NCBI RefSeq assembly: GCF_003967355.1
Contig: NZ_BIFH01000036.1
Location: 896-64,895, forward strand
DNA: 64,000 nt
Source: Embleya hyalina
GTDB taxonomy: Bacteria; Actinomycetota; Actinomycetes; Streptomycetales; Streptomycetaceae
Reading direction: 5' to 3'
Shown: piece by piece, positions 47,972 to 56,323 of the stretch
How positions within the stretch are numbered: the first letter of the stretch is position 1
Layout of the letters: each line of letters opens with the position of its first letter
The notes under the pieces: model-generated
Told to the model about the DNA's origin: nothing
Databases searched by the model: none
The model's input: the letters and a program-made list of their open reading frames with translations, nothing else
Translations under genes and position numbers: made by a program

Positions 47972-49147
47972 ATGCACGCGACACAGGCCCCCGATCCCGA
48001 GCCGTTCGACGCGCTCCTGGTGCTCTCCTTCGGCGGCCCGGACGCCCCCGACGAGGTGCTGCCGTTCCTGGAGAACGTGACCGCGGGACGCGGGGTCCCC
48101 CGCGAACGCCTCGAGGAGGCGGCCGGCCACTACGCGCACTTCGGCGGCGCCAGTCCGATCAACGCGCAGAACCGGGCGCTGATCGCGGCCGTCGAGGCCG
48201 ACCTCGCCGCACACGGGGTGCGGCTGCCCGTCTACTGGGGCAACCGCAACTGGCGCCCCTACCTGGCGGACACCGTGCGCCGGATGGCCGACGACGGGAT
48301 CGAACGCGCCGCGGTCCTGGTGACCAGCGCCTACGGCTCCTACTCGGGCTGCGCGCAGTACCACGAGGACCTGCTCGCGGCCCGCGCCGAAGTGGGCGAG
48401 CGGGCCCCGGTGTTCGACAAGCTGCGGCACTTCTTCAACCACCCGGGCTTCGTCGAGCCGCTGGTGGACCACACGGCGGAGGCGTTGGCGCGGTTGCCCG
48501 AGCAGGTCCGGGCCGGCGCCCGCCTGGTGATGGTCACCCACTCGATCCCCACCGTCACCGCGCGCACCGCGGGCCCGGCCGGCAACGCCTACGTCACCCA
48601 GCACCGGGAGACCGCGCGCCTGGTCGCCGAGGGCGTCGCGCGCGCGGTCGGCCGCGAACACGACTGGGACCTGGTGTACTCCAGCCGCAGCGGCTCCCCG
48701 CGGGTCCCGTGGCTGGAGCCGGACGTCAACGACCACCTCGTCGAGTTGGCCGCGGCCGGGGTGCCCGCCGTCGTGCCGGTGCCGATCGGGTTCCTGTCCG
48801 ACCACATGGAGGTGGTCTACGACCTCGACGTCGAGGCCGCCGCGACGGCCGCCCGGATCGGCCTGCCGCTGGCCCGGGCCGCGACCACCGGCGCCGACCC
48901 CAGGTTCGCCGCCGCCGTGCGCGAACTCGTACTCGAACGGGCCGCGACGGTGCGCGGCGAGGCGCCCGCGCGGTGCGCGCTCGGTGTGCTGGGCGCCGCG
49001 CACGACGTGTGCCCGGTCGGCTGCTGTCCCGACCCGCGGGCCCTGCGTCCGCGCCCCGGAGCGTCGGCCGCCGATTCGGAGGCGCCCGCGCGGGCGCCGC
49101 GCGGGGCGGCGCTCTCGGACGAGCGCTCCGGCAGGATGGACCCATGA
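47972..49147 (+). CDS. hemH: Ferrochelatase (coproporphyrin ferrochelatase type)
   Basis: A 391-residue enzyme inserting Fe2+ into the porphyrin. In actinobacteria this is coproporphyrin III (CpfC) in the coproporphyrin-dependent heme route. Motifs include [49 protein letters not shown] and [20 protein letters not shown]. The C-terminal [12 protein letters not shown], with the earlier RCALG, can supply cysteine ligands for the [2Fe-2S] cluster known in actinobacterial ferrochelatases. The last 35 residues are a variable tail. ATG 47972 is preferred over ATG 47933. It overlaps the next gene by ATGA. Confidence 0.93.
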
Positions 49148-49935
49148 CGATCGACACCGCGGAACTCCTGGCCATCGCCCGCGACGCGGCGCGCCACACC
49201 GGGGGCTTCCTGCTGCACGAGCGCCCCGCCGACCTCGGCGTCGCGGCGACCAAGAGCAGCCCCACCGACGTGGTCACCGAGATGGACACGGCCGCGGAGA
49301 AGCTGATCATCGAACGCATCCGGGCGCATCGACCCCACGACGGCTTCCTCGGCGAGGAGGGCGACGCGAGCGAGGGCAGCAGTGGGGTGCGGTGGGTGAT
49401 CGACCCGATCGACGGCACCGTCAACTACCTGTACGACCTGCCCGGCTGGTGCGTGTCGATCGCCGCCGAGACCGCCGAGGGCACGCTCTTGGGCGTGGTC
49501 GAGGTCCCGGTGGTCGGCGAGACCTTCCACGCCGTGCGCGACGGCGGCGCCTTCCGCAACGGCAAGCCGATCCACTGCCGCCCTGCGGTCCCCTCGGCCC
49601 GGGCGCTGGTGGCGACCGGATTCGGCTACACCGTCGAGCGGCGCACCCGACAGGCCGAGGCGATCGCCGCGCTGCTGCCGCGGGTGCGCGACCTGCGCCG
49701 GGCGGGTTCGGCCGCGATCGACCTGTGCTCGGTGGCGGCGGGCCGGGTCGACGCCTACTACGAACGCGGTCTGAACCCGTGGGACGTCGCGGCCGGCGCG
49801 CTGATCGCCCGCGAGGCCGGCGCCGAGGTGATCGTCGACCTGTGGCCCGAGGCCGACGGCTCGACGATGTGCCTGGCCGCCCCCGCCGGACTGCGCGCGG
49901 AGCTACAGACCGCCCTGGCCGCTCTGCACGCGTAG
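49144..49935 (+). CDS. Inositol monophosphatase family protein
   Basis: A 263-residue Mg2+-dependent sugar-phosphatase fold enzyme. The metal-binding motifs are FLGEEGD (Glu), [14 protein letters not shown] (Asp, Asp) and [19 protein letters not shown] (Asp). All are intact, so it should hydrolyse a small phosphomonoester such as inositol phosphate, histidinol phosphate or a nucleotide. The family is too broad to choose. Translational coupling to ferrochelatase is also the arrangement I recall in Streptomyces. A hairpin follows 12 bases after the stop. Confidence 0.9.
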
Positions 49936-50653: not shown

Positions 50654-51307
50654 GTGCGGGTTCTCGTGGTCGAGGACGAGCAGCTTCTGGCGGACGCGGT
50701 CGCTACCGGGTTGCGCCGCGAGGCCATGGCCGTCGATGTCGTATACGACGGGGAGGCGGCGCTGGAGCGGATCGCCGTCAACGACTACGACGTGGTGGTG
50801 CTCGACCGGGACCTGCCGATCGTGCACGGCGACGACGTGTGCCGGGCGGTCGTGGAAACCGGCATCCCCATGCGGGTACTGATGCTGACCGCCGCCGGCG
50901 ACGTCAGCGACCGGGTCGAGGGCCTGGAATTGGGCGCCGACGACTACCTGCCCAAGCCGTTCGCGTTCAGCGAGCTGATCGCCCGGGTGCGCGCGCTCGG
51001 CCGGCGGGCCGTCTCCCCGCTGCCGCCGGTCCTGGAGCGGGCCGGCATCCGACTCGACCCGAACCGGCGCGAGGTGTTGCGCGAGGGGGTGCCGGTGCAC
51101 CTGTCGCCCAAGGAGTTCGCCGTCCTCGACGTGCTCATGCGCGCCGACGGCGCGGTGGTCTCGGCCGAGCAACTGCTCGAGAAGGCCTGGGACGAGAACA
51201 CCGACCCCTTCACCAACGTCGTCCGCGTCACGGTGATGACGCTGCGCCGCAAGCTCGGCGAGCCGCCCGTCATCCTGACGGTGCCCGGCGCCGGATACCG
51301 CATTTGA
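50654..51307 (+). CDS. cutR: Response regulator CutR (OmpR family)
   Basis: A 217-residue OmpR/PhoB-type regulator. The receiver domain has the acidic pocket VVEDE and phosphoacceptor Asp51 in VVVLDRDLP. The switch residue is in MLTAAGD and the Lys in YLPKPF. A winged-helix DNA-binding domain follows (about 120-217, HLSPKEFAVLDVLMRADGAV, TVPGAGYRI). The length and position between the hemH operon and the kinase gene match CutR of Streptomyces (also 217 residues as I recall). GTG 50654 has AGGAGG 9 bases upstream. Just before it are short repeats (CATCCCATCTC twice). Linked to secretion stress and antibiotic levels in Streptomyces. Confidence 0.92.
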   Translation: MRVLVVEDEQLLADAVATGLRREAMAVDVVYDGEAALERIAVNDYDVVVLDRDLPIVHGDDVCRAVVETGIPMRVLMLTAAGDVSDRVEGLELGADDYLPKPFAFSELIARVRALGRRAVSPLPPVLERAGIRLDPNRREVLREGVPVHLSPKEFAVLDVLMRADGAVVSAEQLLEKAWDENTDPFTNVVRVTVMTLRRKLGEPPVILTVPGAGYRI

Positions 51308-51315
51308 GGACCGCC

Positions 51316-52836
51316 ATGAACGACAGCTCTCGGGCCGTCCCGGCGGAAGCCGGCCCCGCCGCGACCCCGGCCAAGGCCGCACCCCCCGCCCCGACCTCGG
51401 GGTCGACCGCGGCACCGGCCCCGGGCGCCTCGACCGCGCCCGCGCCCGCCTCGGCCAAGTCCGCCGCGCCCCGCTCCGGACCGCCGCCGCGCCCGGGTCG
51501 GCCGCCCCAGCCGCCGCGTCCCAGCGCGCCGCCGAGCGCGCCGCCCAGGCCCAACCGGGAGCCCGCGCGCGAGGCGGGCCGCGATCCGCAGCGCCCGACC
51601 GCCGGCGGTCGGCGGCTGATCCTGGGCCGCGACGCCGACGACGCGGCGGAGATGTCGCGGCTGTCGCGGATGGCCCCCTCGCAGATCCCGGACCTGCTGC
51701 GGTCCACCATCAAGATGCGCCTGACCGCGCTGTACGGCGGCATGTTCCTGATCGCCGGGGTGCTCCTGCTCGGCACCGTCTACCTGCTGGTGCGGCAGAG
51801 CCTGAACGAGGGCCGGCTGAATCTGAGCCTGGCCCCGAACACCTTGATGACCATCAACGGTGTGCCGATGACGCCCGAGCAGTTCGAGCAGTGGCAGACC
51901 CTCCAGCAGATCCACCAGCGCGACGCGGCGTTGAACTCGCTCCTGCAGCAGTCGCTGCTCGCGCTGCTGCTGCTCTCCGTGATCGCCTTCGGCTTCGGCT
52001 ACGTGATGGCGGGCCGGGTGTTGCGCCCGCTGGGGCGGATCACCTCCATCGCCCGCGAGGTGGCCGGATCCAACCTGCATCGGCGGATCGACCTGGAGGG
52101 GCCCGACGACGAGTTCAAGGAGCTGGCCGACACCTTCGACGACATGCTCGACCGGCTCGATCGCTCGCTGGAGTCGCAGCGCAAATTCGTCGCCAACGCC
52201 TCGCACGAGCTGCGCACGCCGCTGGCGATCAACCGCACCCTCCTGGAGGTCGCGCTCGGCGATCCGGAGGCGTCCGTCGAGCTCAAACAGCTCGGCAAGA
52301 CGCTGCTGGCCACCAACGAGCGCAGCGAGGGGCTGATCGAGGGCCTGCTGCTGCTGGCCCGCAGCGACAACGAGCTGACCGAGCGCAAGCCGGTGGACCT
52401 GGCCGAGGTGGCCCGCCGCGCGGTGGACCAGACCGGCGCCGAGGCGGCCGACCGCGAGGTGACCCTGCACGACGAGCTGGGTCCGGCCGTGCTCCAGGGC
52501 AACGGCGTGTTGCTGGAGCGGGTCGCGATGAACCTGATCCAGAACGCGGTGCGCTACAACCGGGTCGGCGGCACCGTCGACATCTCCACCGAGTCGGGCG
52601 CGGGAGTCGCGGTGCTGACCGTGACCAACACCGGGCCGGTGGTGCCCGGCTACGAGGTGGACAACATGTTCGAGCCGTTCCGGCGGCTGCGGACCGAGCG
52701 GATCGCCAGCGACAAGGGCGTGGGCCTGGGGTTGTCCATCGTGCGTTCGATCGTGCGCGCGCACGGCGGCTGGATCGAGGTCGAGCCCCGGGAAGAGGGC
52801 GGGCTGATGATGCGGATCGGGTTCCCGATCGGCTGA
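51316..52836 (+). CDS. cutS: Sensor histidine kinase CutS, with extended proline-rich N-terminus
   Basis: A 506-residue kinase. Residues 1-105 are Pro/Ala/Ser-rich and disordered. The first membrane helix is at about 135-158 and the second at about 213-236, enclosing a short extracytoplasmic segment. HAMP (GRVLRPLGRITSIAREVAGS), the phosphoacceptor His near 297 in NASHELRTPL, and the ATPase motifs NLIQNAVRYN and GVGLGLSIV follow. Streptomyces CutS is about 410 residues in my memory, so roughly 90 residues are extra. The whole protein contains no cysteine. It is 8 bases downstream of cutR with GAGG before the ATG, so they form an operon. Confidence 0.92.
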   Translation: MNDSSRAVPAEAGPAATPAKAAPPAPTSGSTAAPAPGASTAPAPASAKSAAPRSGPPPRPGRPPQPPRPSAPPSAPPRPNREPAREAGRDPQRPTAGGRRLILGRDADDAAEMSRLSRMAPSQIPDLLRSTIKMRLTALYGGMFLIAGVLLLGTVYLLVRQSLNEGRLNLSLAPNTLMTINGVPMTPEQFEQWQTLQQIHQRDAALNSLLQQSLLALLLLSVIAFGFGYVMAGRVLRPLGRITSIAREVAGSNLHRRIDLEGPDDEFKELADTFDDMLDRLDRSLESQRKFVANASHELRTPLAINRTLLEVALGDPEASVELKQLGKTLLATNERSEGLIEGLLLLARSDNELTERKPVDLAEVARRAVDQTGAEAADREVTLHDELGPAVLQGNGVLLERVAMNLIQNAVRYNRVGGTVDISTESGAGVAVLTVTNTGPVVPGYEVDNMFEPFRRLRTERIASDKGVGLGLSIVRSIVRAHGGWIEVEPREEGGLMMRIGFPIG

Positions 52837-52907
52837 TCGCCCTCTCGTCACCGACTGTTTTCGGCCGGCGGCGGCCCGCTGTCGAGGGCCGCCGCGACCG
52901 CCCTTGT

Positions 52908-52923
52908 TCGTACGCACGTACGA
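52908..52923. promoter_or_regulatory. 16-bp palindrome upstream of the desaturase gene
   Basis: TCGTACG-CA-CGTACGA has perfect 7-bp arms. It lies 151 bases before the desaturase ATG and 71 bases after cutS. It may be an operator for the desaturase gene. The CGTACG core also recurs nearby as TACG half-sites. Confidence 0.45.
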
Positions 52924-52961
52924 GAGTCGGGGATCACATTTCCGTCTGGGGGTGGAACCAA

Positions 52962-52992
52962 CCTACGCTGTCGTAAGTTACGGGAACGTAGG
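52962..52992. promoter_or_regulatory. Nested 31-bp palindrome, candidate operator of the desaturase gene
   Basis: The inner palindrome CGTAAGTTACG (52972-52982) and the outer arms CCTACG (52962-52967) and CGTAGG (52987-52992) share the same centre at 52977. Twenty-two of the 30 non-central bases are symmetric. This is the layout of a TetR- or GntR-type operator. It lies 82 bases before the ATG at 53075, where a promoter is expected. Confidence 0.55.
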
Positions 52993-53074
52993 GACGCGTC
53001 GTGCGGGCGATGCACAGCGTCGTCCTCCGTGTCTGCCGCTGTACGACGCTGTCTGCCTATGCACTGGAGTGCCG

Positions 53075-54025
53075 ATGAACCTTCTCGCCGCCGCACCGAC
53101 CGGCCCGCACCTGCTCCGCGAGTTGGAGCAGGTCGTCGCCGTCGAACTCGACCGCCATCTCGCCGTGGCCAAGGAGTGGTTCCCGCACGAGTACGTGCCG
53201 TGGAGCGCGGGTCGCGACTTCGACGGCGTACTCGGCGGCGAGGCGTGGACCCCGGAGGAGTCGAGGCTCACCGACGTCGGCCGGATAGCGTTGACGCTGA
53301 ACCTGCTGACCGAGGACAACCTGCCCAGCTACCACTACGAGATCGCGGCGATGTTCGGCCGCGACGGCGCCTGGGGCACGTGGGTGCACCGGTGGACGGC
53401 CGAGGAGGGCCGGCACGGCATCGCGATCCGCGACTACCTGATGGCCGCCCGGGCGGTGGACCCGGTCGCGCTGGAGCGCTCGCGGATGGAACACATGGAG
53501 GCCGGCTACCAGGGCGACCACATGGACAATCCGCTGCACGTGATCGCCTACGTGACCTTCCAGGAGCTGGCCACCCGGGTCTCGCACCGCAACTCGGGCC
53601 GCACCTGCGGCGACCCGATCGCCGAGCAGCTGCTCGCGAAGGTGGCGACCGACGAGAACCTGCACATGGTCTTCTACCGGAACCTGCTCAGGGCCGCCTT
53701 CGAGATCGCGCCGGATCAGGCGATGCGCGCGGTGACCGACATGGTCACCGACTTCCGGATGCCCGGACACGGGATCAGCGGCTTCGAGCGCGCGGCGGTC
53801 AAGCTCGCCGTGGGCGGCGTGTACAACCTGCCGATCCACCAGAACGACGTGCTCCTGCCGGTGCTGCGCAACCTCAAGGTGATGGAGCGCACCGACCTGG
53901 GCCCGGAGGGCGAGAAGGCCCGCGAGGAGCTCGCGGTGTTCCTGGGCGGCCTGAACACCCAGGCGACCCGCTTCGAGGAGCGCCGACTGGCCCTGGAGGC
54001 CCGCAAGGCGGCCAACCGCGTCTGA
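53075..54025 (+). CDS. Acyl-ACP desaturase (soluble di-iron fatty acid desaturase)
   Basis: A 316-residue ferritin-like enzyme of the plant stearoyl-ACP desaturase/mycobacterial DesA family. It inserts a double bond into ACP-bound acyl chains using O2 and ferredoxin. The di-iron ligands lie in LTEDNLPSYHYEI, WTAEEGRHGIAIRDY (ExxH), TFQELATRVSH and KVATDENLHMVFYR (ExxH). Length and motifs are complete, so it should be active and supply unsaturated fatty acids for membrane fluidity. ATG 53075 has GGAG 6 bases upstream. Two palindromes upstream suggest control by a fatty-acid-type repressor. It is convergent with the NatAB-like genes. Confidence 0.93.
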   Translation: MNLLAAAPTGPHLLRELEQVVAVELDRHLAVAKEWFPHEYVPWSAGRDFDGVLGGEAWTPEESRLTDVGRIALTLNLLTEDNLPSYHYEIAAMFGRDGAWGTWVHRWTAEEGRHGIAIRDYLMAARAVDPVALERSRMEHMEAGYQGDHMDNPLHVIAYVTFQELATRVSHRNSGRTCGDPIAEQLLAKVATDENLHMVFYRNLLRAAFEIAPDQAMRAVTDMVTDFRMPGHGISGFERAAVKLAVGGVYNLPIHQNDVLLPVLRNLKVMERTDLGPEGEKAREELAVFLGGLNTQATRFEERRLALEARKAANRV

Positions 54026-54134: not shown

Positions 54135-55328
54135 TCAGCGCTTGCGGGCCGCGCCGAGGGCCTCCTTGAAGCCGACCTTGCCGCCCATCCGCAACACCGC
54201 GCCCTCGTACATCCGGGCCGCGAGCCGGACCAGCCCCACCAGCGCGAGCAGCGCGAGCGCGAAGGCGACCAGGTTCTCCACCACCGACACCTCGTCCGCG
54301 GCGGTCATCGCCGGCTGGAGCATCGCCGAGAACGGCGGGACGTAGGCCAGTACGTGGGCGATCGTGCCGCCCTTCTGCCCGAGGAAGACGGCGGCCAGGA
54401 ACGAGCCGATCAGCAGCGAGGTCATCGGCGTGATCACGTTCTGCAGATCCTCCTGGCGGGACACCCGCGCCGCCGCCGCGGCGAACATGCACGCGTAGAG
54501 CGCGTAGCCCACCACGAACCACAGCAGCACCAGCGCCACCGGATAGATCATCGCCCCGGTCAACTCGACGCTGCCCAGCGCGGACGCCGCGGCCAGTCCG
54601 ACCACCGCGGTGACCAGCATCTGCAACAGCCCGAGCAGGCCGATCCCGAGGACCTTGCCGGTCAGCAGCGCCCGGGCGGGCACGGTGGCCAGCAGGATCT
54701 CCACGATCCGGCTCGACTTCTCCTCCACCACACCGCTGGCCACCCACATGCAGAAGACCATCAACATGCCGTAGAGCACCAAAGTGCCGACGAAGGCGAT
54801 GCCCTTGCGTGTGTCGCGCTGGTCGGCGTCGGGATCCAGCGTGGTCTTGGGCATCGGCCGGATCGCCGACGCCTCATTCACCGCGCCCGGGTCGATGCCC
54901 CGCGCGCTCAGCCGCAGATCGCGCTCCACGGTGGCCCAGGCGCTCTGCAGCACGGCCGCCAGCGGGTCGGACAGCTTGGTGTCCACCAGGATCCGGCCGT
55001 TGTCCACGACCGCGTCCAGCCCGCCGTCGGCCAGCGCCTTCTCCGCCGCCGCGCGGTCGGCCACCGTGCCCACGCGCACGTCCACATCGAGCAGCGCCGC
55101 CTGGCGCTCGGCGGTCTGCGCCAACTGCGTCTGCTGCGGACCGAGGAAGGCCACGTCGTACTTGTCCGAGCCGCCGCCGAGCGCGGCCGGGATGGCCACC
55201 GAGGCGAGCAGGATCACCAGCATGACGCCCACCGAGATCTGGAAACCCCGATCCCGGATGCGCTCGGTGAACTCGCGGCGCGCGACCAACCGCACGGCGG
55301 ACCAAAACGTGCTGCCACCGGTGCTCAC
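54135..55328 (-). CDS. ABC transporter permease, NatB-like
   Basis: A 397-residue ABC-2 permease. It has one N-terminal helix (QISVGVMLVILLASVAIPAA), a large extracytoplasmic domain (about 50-190) and five more helices in the C-terminal half. The motif SGVVEEKSSRIVEILLATV with PARALLTGKVLGIGLLGLLQ is the signature of the NatB/YhaP Na+-exporter-like group. GTG 55328 overlaps the stop of the ATPase gene (GTGA), so the two are coupled and form one exporter. The cargo (Na+, lipid or drug) cannot be read from the sequence. Confidence 0.9.
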   Translation of the reverse strand: MSTGGSTFWSAVRLVARREFTERIRDRGFQISVGVMLVILLASVAIPAALGGGSDKYDVAFLGPQQTQLAQTAERQAALLDVDVRVGTVADRAAAEKALADGGLDAVVDNGRILVDTKLSDPLAAVLQSAWATVERDLRLSARGIDPGAVNEASAIRPMPKTTLDPDADQRDTRKGIAFVGTLVLYGMLMVFCMWVASGVVEEKSSRIVEILLATVPARALLTGKVLGIGLLGLLQMLVTAVVGLAAASALGSVELTGAMIYPVALVLLWFVVGYALYACMFAAAAARVSRQEDLQNVITPMTSLLIGSFLAAVFLGQKGGTIAHVLAYVPPFSAMLQPAMTAADEVSVVENLVAFALALLALVGLVRLAARMYEGAVLRMGGKVGFKEALGAARKR

Positions 55329-56323
55329 GCGCCGACCTCCGATTCCCTGCCGGCCGCCGGGTCCGAACCCGCCGGCTCGCCCGCCCGCGGCTTCGCGACC
55401 GGCGGCTCGCCGGCCTCCGCGTCCGTGCCCTCGCCGTTGACCACCTCGCGGAAGAGTTCGGCGAGGGAGGGGGCGGCGGGGGCGAACGCGAGCACCCGGC
55501 CCGCCGCCCGGCCCGCGTCGAGCAGTGCCTGCTCGCTCGTCCCCGGAAGCAGTTCGACCAGCACCGCGTCCTCCTCGGCCGGGCCGAGCACCCGCACGCC
55601 GGGCAGCGCGTCCGCCCAGCCCGCCGGCGCCCCCGCGACACGCACCCGATAGCGCACCGCGCGATCGTCGCCGCGCAATTCGGCCACCGTGCCGGAGGCG
55701 TGCATGCGCCCGCCGTTGATGATCCCGACCGCGTCGCACAACGACTCGACGAGTTCGAGCTGATGGCTGGAGAAGACCACCGAGGCCCCCGCCGCGGTGC
55801 GCTCGCGCAGCACGCCCGCCATCACGTCCACACCGACCGGGTCCAGGCCGGAGAACGGCTCGTCCAGGACCAGCAGCTCCGGCTCGTGCACCAGCGCGGC
55901 GGCCAGCTGCACACGCTGCTGATTGCCCAGCGACAGCGTCTCCAGCCGGTCCCCGGGAGCGCCCGTCACCCGCAGCCGGGTCAACCAGTGCGCGGCCGAC
56001 GCCTGCGCCTCGGTCCGCGACATCCCGTGCAGCTCGGCCAGGTAGACCAGCTGGTCCCGGATGCGCATCTTCGGATACAGGCCGCGCTCCTCCGGCATGT
56101 ATCCCCAACGTCGTCGCACCTTGCGGTCGACCGGGGCGCCCCGCCAGCGGATCTCGCCACGATCGGCCGCCAACACGCCCAGCGCGATGCGCATGGTCGT
56201 GGTCTTGCCCGCCCCGTTGGTGCCGACGAATCCGAACATCTGGCCCGGCTGTACGGTCAGCGAGAGGTTGTCGAGGACAACCTTCGCGCCGAACCGCTTG
56301 TCCAGGCCGGCCAACTCGAGCAC
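55325..56323 (-). CDS. ABC transporter ATP-binding protein, NatA-like
   Basis: A 332-residue ATPase. Walker A is GTNGAGKTTTMR at about 34-43. The Q-loop region YMPEERGLYPKMRIRDQL is typical of NatA/YhaQ, the signature is LSLGNQQRVQLAAAL and Walker B LLVLDEPFSGLDPVG, with the switch His in SSHQLELVE. A C-terminal acidic tail of about 35 residues is variable. It is the first gene of the two-gene exporter operon. GTG 56323 has GGGGAG 5 bases upstream. An AT-rich GTATATAAG on the minus strand near 56361-56369 is a likely -10 region. Confidence 0.92.
   Translation of the reverse strand: MLELAGLDKRFGAKVVLDNLSLTVQPGQMFGFVGTNGAGKTTTMRIALGVLAADRGEIRWRGAPVDRKVRRRWGYMPEERGLYPKMRIRDQLVYLAELHGMSRTEAQASAAHWLTRLRVTGAPGDRLETLSLGNQQRVQLAAALVHEPELLVLDEPFSGLDPVGVDVMAGVLRERTAAGASVVFSSHQLELVESLCDAVGIINGGRMHASGTVAELRGDDRAVRYRVRVAGAPAGWADALPGVRVLGPAEEDAVLVELLPGTSEQALLDAGRAAGRVLAFAPAAPSLAELFREVVNGEGTDAEAGEPPVAKPRAGEPAGSDPAAGRESEVGA

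Follow-up and report, generated by a model that had tools for sequence, protein, structure and literature searches.

The closest described system is the CutRS pair of Streptomyces, a proposed detector of protein-folding stress whose sensor kinase CutS was suggested in 2025 to read disulphide formation outside the cell (PMC12802291). According to that paper, two cysteines of the extracytoplasmic loop are conserved in more than 100 Streptomyces CutS proteins and universal in those tested, and the C85S,C103S variant renders CutRS constitutively active. The system is termed there 'only conserved in Streptomyces species'; CutS reciprocal best hits are reported in 39% of 2,936 bacterial genomes, and at least two loop cysteines in just 6.9% of the CutS homologues of the bacterial set. 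Cys-free homologues as such are already known from the latter figure. The name Kitasatospora is absent from the main text of the paper. In the open-licence literature, no paper was found on CutS or CutRS in Kitasatospora or on the two-component systems of Embleya, nor any description of a Cys-free CutS inside the family at the same locus. This published work is the one on sensing cysteines mentioned in an earlier note on this DNA, and it agrees with what the note says of it.

The locus analysed here lies in a window of 64,000 nucleotides from Embleya hyalina, the whole stretch of DNA under study. Two overlapping samples of relatives were used for comparison. The first was obtained by a scan of public genome contigs; since the best 80 of 576 confirmed stretches were retained, it leans towards the query, and S. 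coelicolor and S. venezuelae are absent from it. The second consists of 61 genomes (own and relatives) searched with CutS residues 85-236, which yielded a CutS match in 44 of them. The own family (code f1, 17 genus codes), equated with Streptomycetaceae, is represented by 37 genomes, and every one of these has a match.

A cutRS locus with a thiol-free kinase

The gene at 51316-52836 (forward strand, as for all features below unless stated) encodes a sensor histidine kinase of 506 residues whose translation contains no cysteine. It adjoins cutR (50654-51307), coding for an OmpR-type response regulator with receiver and winged-helix domains (Pfam Response_reg and Trans_reg_C), and lies behind two conserved neighbours, the genes for ferrochelatase (47972-49147, PF00762) and an inositol monophosphatase family protein, or IMPase (49144-49935, PF00459). 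All four genes were matched in 77 of the 80 best of 576 loci. Of the 36 other family genomes, 34 show the same order on a single strand, and in the remaining two (G003 and G012) a contig end interrupts the locus; the order also recurs in two genomes belonging to other families of the order (G037 and G040). The trees cluster the protein with Streptomyces CutS, apart from outside homologues, and its architecture fits a CutS orthologue, with two transmembrane helices round a short loop followed by HAMP, HisKA and ATPase domains. What this reading frame encodes is a thiol-free CutS, the Embleya orthologue. The earlier note had identified it as CutS from gene order and from its partner CutR, in agreement with synteny and tree.

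The polypeptide starts with a cytoplasmic head rich in Pro, Ala and Ser (residues 1-100, 51316-51615), followed by a juxtamembrane segment (residues 101-137, 51616-51726) that matches its E. scabrispora counterpart at all but 2 of 37 positions. The first transmembrane helix, TM1 (residues 138-159, 51727-51792, Kyte-Doolittle), leads into the extracytoplasmic sensor loop (residues 160-212, 51793-51951), delimited by hydropathy and by alignment with two-Cys loops, and then into TM2 (residues 213-235, 51952-52020, hydropathy). The cytoplasmic half comprises HAMP (residues 230-282, 52003-52161, PF00672), HisKA with the motif SHELRTP and H297 (residues 288-352, 52177-52371, PF00512) and the ATPase domain (residues 397-504, 52504-52827, PF02518). 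The best NCBIfam model for the protein is VanS-O (NF033094, E 1.8e-59, residues 212-504); membership was rejected at 201.8 bits against a cut-off of 720.

With the CutS of S. venezuelae and S. coelicolor (PMC12802291 and PMC10433416) the Embleya protein shares gene order, the CutR partner, two transmembrane helices and a head with the motif PP[KR]P, a likeness judged from the 72 two-Cys loci among the best 80 of 576. Unlike two-Cys Streptomyces-type CutS, it lacks the loop pair by which a disulphide-gated CutS is recognised, displays another residue at position 160, has a head some 100 residues above the median and is followed by a desaturase gene. The Kitasatospora-type CutS resembles it in having a loop free of cysteine, Arg at position 160, Gly at position 182 and a desaturase gene downstream, but differs by a head of 64-67 residues and by identities of 70-73% in the kinase part and 22-33% in the loop.

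In the closest locus among the best 80 of 576, that of E. scabrispora (L003), CutS is 87% and CutR 100% identical to the proteins of the window; CutR identity is 85-89% to the other 78 loci with a cutR match and 84-91% outside Embleya over both samples. The end of CutR, NVVRVTVMTLRRKLG, is the same in the window, one Streptomyces and one Kitasatospora, the three rows compared. On the output side, the disulphide-gated model predicts CutR sites at htrA-type genes. The own genome (a 12.05-Mb assembly in 78 contigs) was searched for PF13365, with 15 matches. Pfam assigned PDZ domains, and hence an HtrA-type architecture, to C27 and C49, and a Colicin V-type membrane domain to the third match looked at in this way. 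The seven CutR site sequences in Table 1 of PMC12802291 were absent from the 17.6-18.0 kb round the six best of the 15 matches; the 1.5 kb on either side of the eight best contained no looser form, both scans covering part of the genome. Streptomyces htrB adjoins cssRS (PMC3498368), whereas a motif search found no convincing kinase gene beside the six best Embleya matches. Two long frames near HtrA-type matches (L095 and L098) display an HExRxP-like motif; they lack the ATPase motifs searched and were taken as off-frame.

Distribution and history of the loop cysteines

Exactly two loop cysteines are present in 72 of the 80 best of 576 loci and none in the other eight. The two-Cys loci of this set belong to Streptomyces, Actinacidiphila, Wenjunlia and two further records. 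The Cys-free ones are L003 and seven Kitasatospora-type loci (L038, L052, L053, L060, L062, L075 and L081), three of which are recorded as Streptomyces although the tree places them with Kitasatospora (SH-aLRT 98). The earlier note had allowed that typical Streptomyces CutS proteins might also lack sensor cysteines, which the pair found in these 72 loci contradicts. As 76 of the 83 CutS rows from the best 80 of 576 loci have no cysteine outside the loop anyway, the missing feature is the loop pair.

Among the 37 family genomes, two loop cysteines occur in 19 (10 genera) and none in 18 (7 genera), never one or three. Compared across clades, as the earlier note had proposed, the pair is all-or-none and head length is untied to it. 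For several sister genera a Cys-free CutS is the rule, and the idea of one odd lineage gives way to a split through the family. The note's statement that 'this lineage' is Cys-free holds for Embleya and was too narrow, seven genera being in the same state. Ten of the ten non-syntenic outside or paralogous homologues read (L083-L086, G046, G054, G044, G049, G000b and G010b) have no loop cysteine. The count covers the fetched homologues with a recognisable TM motif: G000c was dropped for want of it, and several weak matches lie outside the set. Two plasmid-borne CutS-like genes (L001 and L002) carry the pair. One of these is located at 2923-4140 of L002 (Streptomyces longhuiensis plasmid p1); the gene table for the plasmid stretch fetched, which is incomplete, lists no response regulator.

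At position 160, where TM1 ends, 18 of the 19 two-Cys genomes have Ala, as against none of the 18 Cys-free ones. Among the first-sample rows (best 80 of 576 loci), Ala occupies this position in 73 of 74 two-Cys proteins, and all 9 Cys-free proteins have Arg there. An invariant Arg160 in Cys-free CutS was considered and abandoned: the wider sample displays R, G, N, Q or D, and only 'never Ala' survives.

The geometry of the pair is variable. The spacing between the two cysteines is 17-23 in 15 of the 19 two-Cys genomes, 11-16 in three (g8 twice and g12), where the second cysteine lies four residues earlier, and 8 in one (g10). From the second cysteine to a fixed TM2 anchor, 18 residues are counted in 15 of the 19, 22 in three and 30 in one. 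The syntenic CutS of G040 (L171), which belongs to a different family of the order, likewise carries two loop cysteines, and 18 residues again separate the second of them from the anchor. In L139 (genome G012, genus g10) a different pair, eight residues apart, lies inside the hairpin (NTCLQINDTKLCDD), with Arg still at position 160; this pair was possibly acquired independently.

A tree was built from four genes (ferrochelatase, IMPase, CutR and the kinase part of CutS without the loop) and rooted on G037 (no Cys) and G040 (two Cys), order-level relatives with the same gene order. According to the tool's warning these two are long branches that meet, and G003 and G012 occupy under half of the columns. 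Embleya and genus g2 form one Cys-free clade (100/100), g3, g4, g11 and g14 another (98/95), and 16 two-Cys genomes group together (98/96); g8, g10 and g15 do not settle. The cysteine state needs three changes on this tree, and a single two-Cys clade within the family was not rejected (AU p 0.174). Under a two-state model the probability of a Cys-free family ancestor is 0.94 if the rates are equal and about 1 if they are allowed to differ, from which a Cys-free CutS would probably be ancestral in the family. One clean gain of the pair, as suggested by the single change on an 87-row tree with plasmid-borne outgroups, was given up in view of the three changes and the two-Cys outgroup of the wider sample.

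The proline-rich head

By hydropathy, 137 residues precede TM1, and the first 100 residues include 28 Pro, 24 Ala and 10 Ser. The conserved YGGMF motif is preceded by 139 residues. For 71 two-Cys orthologues the median is 39 (37-74), and seven Kitasatospora-type proteins have 64-67, both groups coming from the best 80 of 576 loci; given these values, the earlier note's 'about 90 extra' Pro-, Ala- and Ser-rich residues are a fair estimate.

The cutS ATG lies 8 nt past the cutR stop, and the upstream tgaggaccgcc is identical in E. scabrispora. Most other loci of the 80 best of 576 start cutS 3-8 nt past cutR, the Kitasatospora-type ones at 30-106 nt. Comparison of the window with E. scabrispora points to purifying selection on residues 56-100 (dN 0.036, dS 0.58, 15 of 18 changes at third codon positions), residues 1-55 being less constrained (dN 0.30, dS 0.38), and the aligned gaps in the head preserve the frame. 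As two of the three forward frames are open across the head, an open frame proves nothing by itself there. The start and the head are real, the start being well supported by its position and by the coding-type substitutions. On the same grounds the alternative starts M113 and M119 were ruled out, and with them the reservation of the earlier note that the true start might follow the proline-rich segment.

The motif PP[KR]P is found in the heads of 80 of 83 CutS rows of both Cys types from the best 80 of 576 loci; a contig end truncates one of the three exceptions. In the second sample (the 37 family genomes plus G037) 32 of 38 rows have it, and one of the six without it is likewise truncated. 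Head lengths in the second sample are 127-139 in Embleya, 79-129 in g2, where the starts are less sure, 36-84 in the Cys-free genera g3, g4, g11, g14 and g15, and 39-80 in the two-Cys genomes. Head length and cysteine state do not track, given the last two ranges. The Embleya head is an enlarged version of one common in the family, and general in kind.

Signal input and competing explanations

An AlphaFold2 monomer prediction was computed from 48 rows for residues 105-506 of the window protein (model number plus 104). Strands 74-76 and 79-81 in model numbering, around N181-G182, correspond to a predicted beta-hairpin, M178-T-I-N-G-V-P-M185 (51847-51870), and the pLDDT of the two blocks is 82 and 87. 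A helix is predicted from residue 187 through TM2, and the loop blocks range from 72 to 87; the prediction for the two-Cys loop of L032 is less certain (58-73). Loop identity between the window and E. scabrispora is 0.96 at a kinase identity of 0.96, a loop identity of at least 0.94 being reached in 1 of 133 comparable two-Cys pairs. An unusually conserved Embleya loop was nevertheless dropped as a candidate, since the loop of G003, of the same genus, is only 0.53 identical at a kinase identity of 0.90. The loop evolves fast in Embleya too, so that nothing in it points to a new binding site under strong conservation.

The explanation preferred here, with a probability of roughly 0.6, is that Embleya CutS is a thiol-free orthologue with conserved output wiring and non-covalent signalling through the loop, a form probably older than the two-Cys one, with an enlarged head. 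CutS would pair with CutR as in Streptomyces, and the output wiring is most likely unchanged because the TM2-HAMP-HisKA-ATPase half and the DNA-binding end of CutR are conserved. The input would differ: the 53-residue loop is predicted to consist of a small hairpin and a helix running into TM2, with no disulphide. A non-covalent movement of the hairpin against the helix would most likely carry the signal, and an envelope ligand, a misfolded chain or a membrane change acting on the loop may trigger it. In Streptomyces and related genera, on the published model extended in this way, the pair would staple the hairpin region to the helix and thereby add redox gating. It seems reasonable that a Cys-free CutS must sense something else, as the earlier note had argued.

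An alternative would have the pair ancestral and lost independently in Embleya and the sister genera, with CutS locked as a fixed-on kinase. Several losses of an old pair are possible, as the syntenic CutS of G040 has the second cysteine at the common position, and the C-to-S variant of S. venezuelae is constitutively active (PMC12802291). The state of the syntenic outside relative G037 and of the ten homologues, both Cys-free, and the ancestor favoured by the two-state model argue against an ancestral pair. A locked kinase would moreover leave 18 of 37 genomes with an inputless sensor though the loop is kept at a similar length, and this explanation is considered unlikely. Still less is to be said for the extended head docking a cytoplasmic partner that replaces the cysteine input, a very improbable reading. 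Although the longest heads are indeed those of Embleya and, with less sure starts, g2, and E. scabrispora shows conservation of residues 56-137 with the window protein, two-Cys proteins carry PP[KR]P heads as well and five Cys-free genera have heads of about the two-Cys size; the earlier note's docking partner specific to the Cys-free type finds no support, since the motif occurs in 80 of 83 heads.

Sensing of membrane or lipid state, linked to the neighbouring desaturase, is the remaining alternative and an improbable one. A fatty acid desaturase gene (53075-54025, PF03405, FA_desaturase_2) accompanies cutS only where the kinase is Cys-free. It is the first matched gene downstream, in the same orientation, in 16 of the 18 Cys-free genomes and in none of the 19 two-Cys ones, at least 3.5 kb of downstream sequence being covered, and in 8 of 8 Cys-free against 0 of 72 two-Cys loci of the best 80 of 576; a short loop with a predicted helix continuous with TM2 would also suit such an input. 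The gene, however, starts 238 bp past cutS behind a promoter-like block of its own (by eye), and a stable hairpin (-34.6 kcal/mol or lower per 60 nt) lies between the two genes in 7 of 7 Kitasatospora-type loci. The CutR site TAWATAAA is absent from the whole 64,000-nt window and no CutR-like octamer was found in nine cutS-desaturase stretches, so that control of the desaturase by CutR was rejected. G006 and G017 are Cys-free, yet lack the desaturase neighbour, which is also absent in both order-level relatives (G037 and G040). The adjacency is likely a shared ancestral gene order, in view of the separate conserved block, the Kitasatospora-type hairpin and the lack of a CutR box in the window, and shared ancestry suffices to explain it. 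In the window itself, the stretch past cutS folds no better than shuffles (z -0.82), leaving a terminator there unsupported.

Conserved imperfect repeats (about TTACG.TGTCGTAA) are seen by eye ahead of the desaturase at 52837-53074 of the window and in L003, L038, L052, L053, L060, L062, L075 and L081, and a CGTACG-type palindrome precedes the gene in the two Embleya loci; these elements look like operators of a separate regulator. Beyond the desaturase lies an ABC-2 type exporter pair (54135-56323, reverse strand), whose permease has a match at the corresponding position in three further Embleya genomes and three of genus g2; the remaining second-sample stretches have none there.

A broader proposal for the family is made tentatively, at slightly less than even odds. 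A kinase-regulator pair would have stayed at its locus, partner and DNA-binding end unchanged, while its input changed within one family, a thiol-free loop sensor becoming a disulphide switch by joint acquisition of two cysteines, possibly more than once, with geometries of 8, 11-16 and 17-23 residues and a linked Ala at the end of TM1.

As natural versions without loop cysteines exist, the published disulphide-sensing model cannot cover all CutS relatives. The presence of a CutS match in 37 of 37 family genomes, 18 of them without the loop pair, contrasts with the description 'only conserved in Streptomyces species' in PMC12802291. The observation on the Embleya protein is sound and concerns a variant, open to testing, of a system already known, and the natural Cys-free orthologues constitute ready-made controls for deciding between the cysteine pair as the sensor itself and as a tuning staple on an older sensor.
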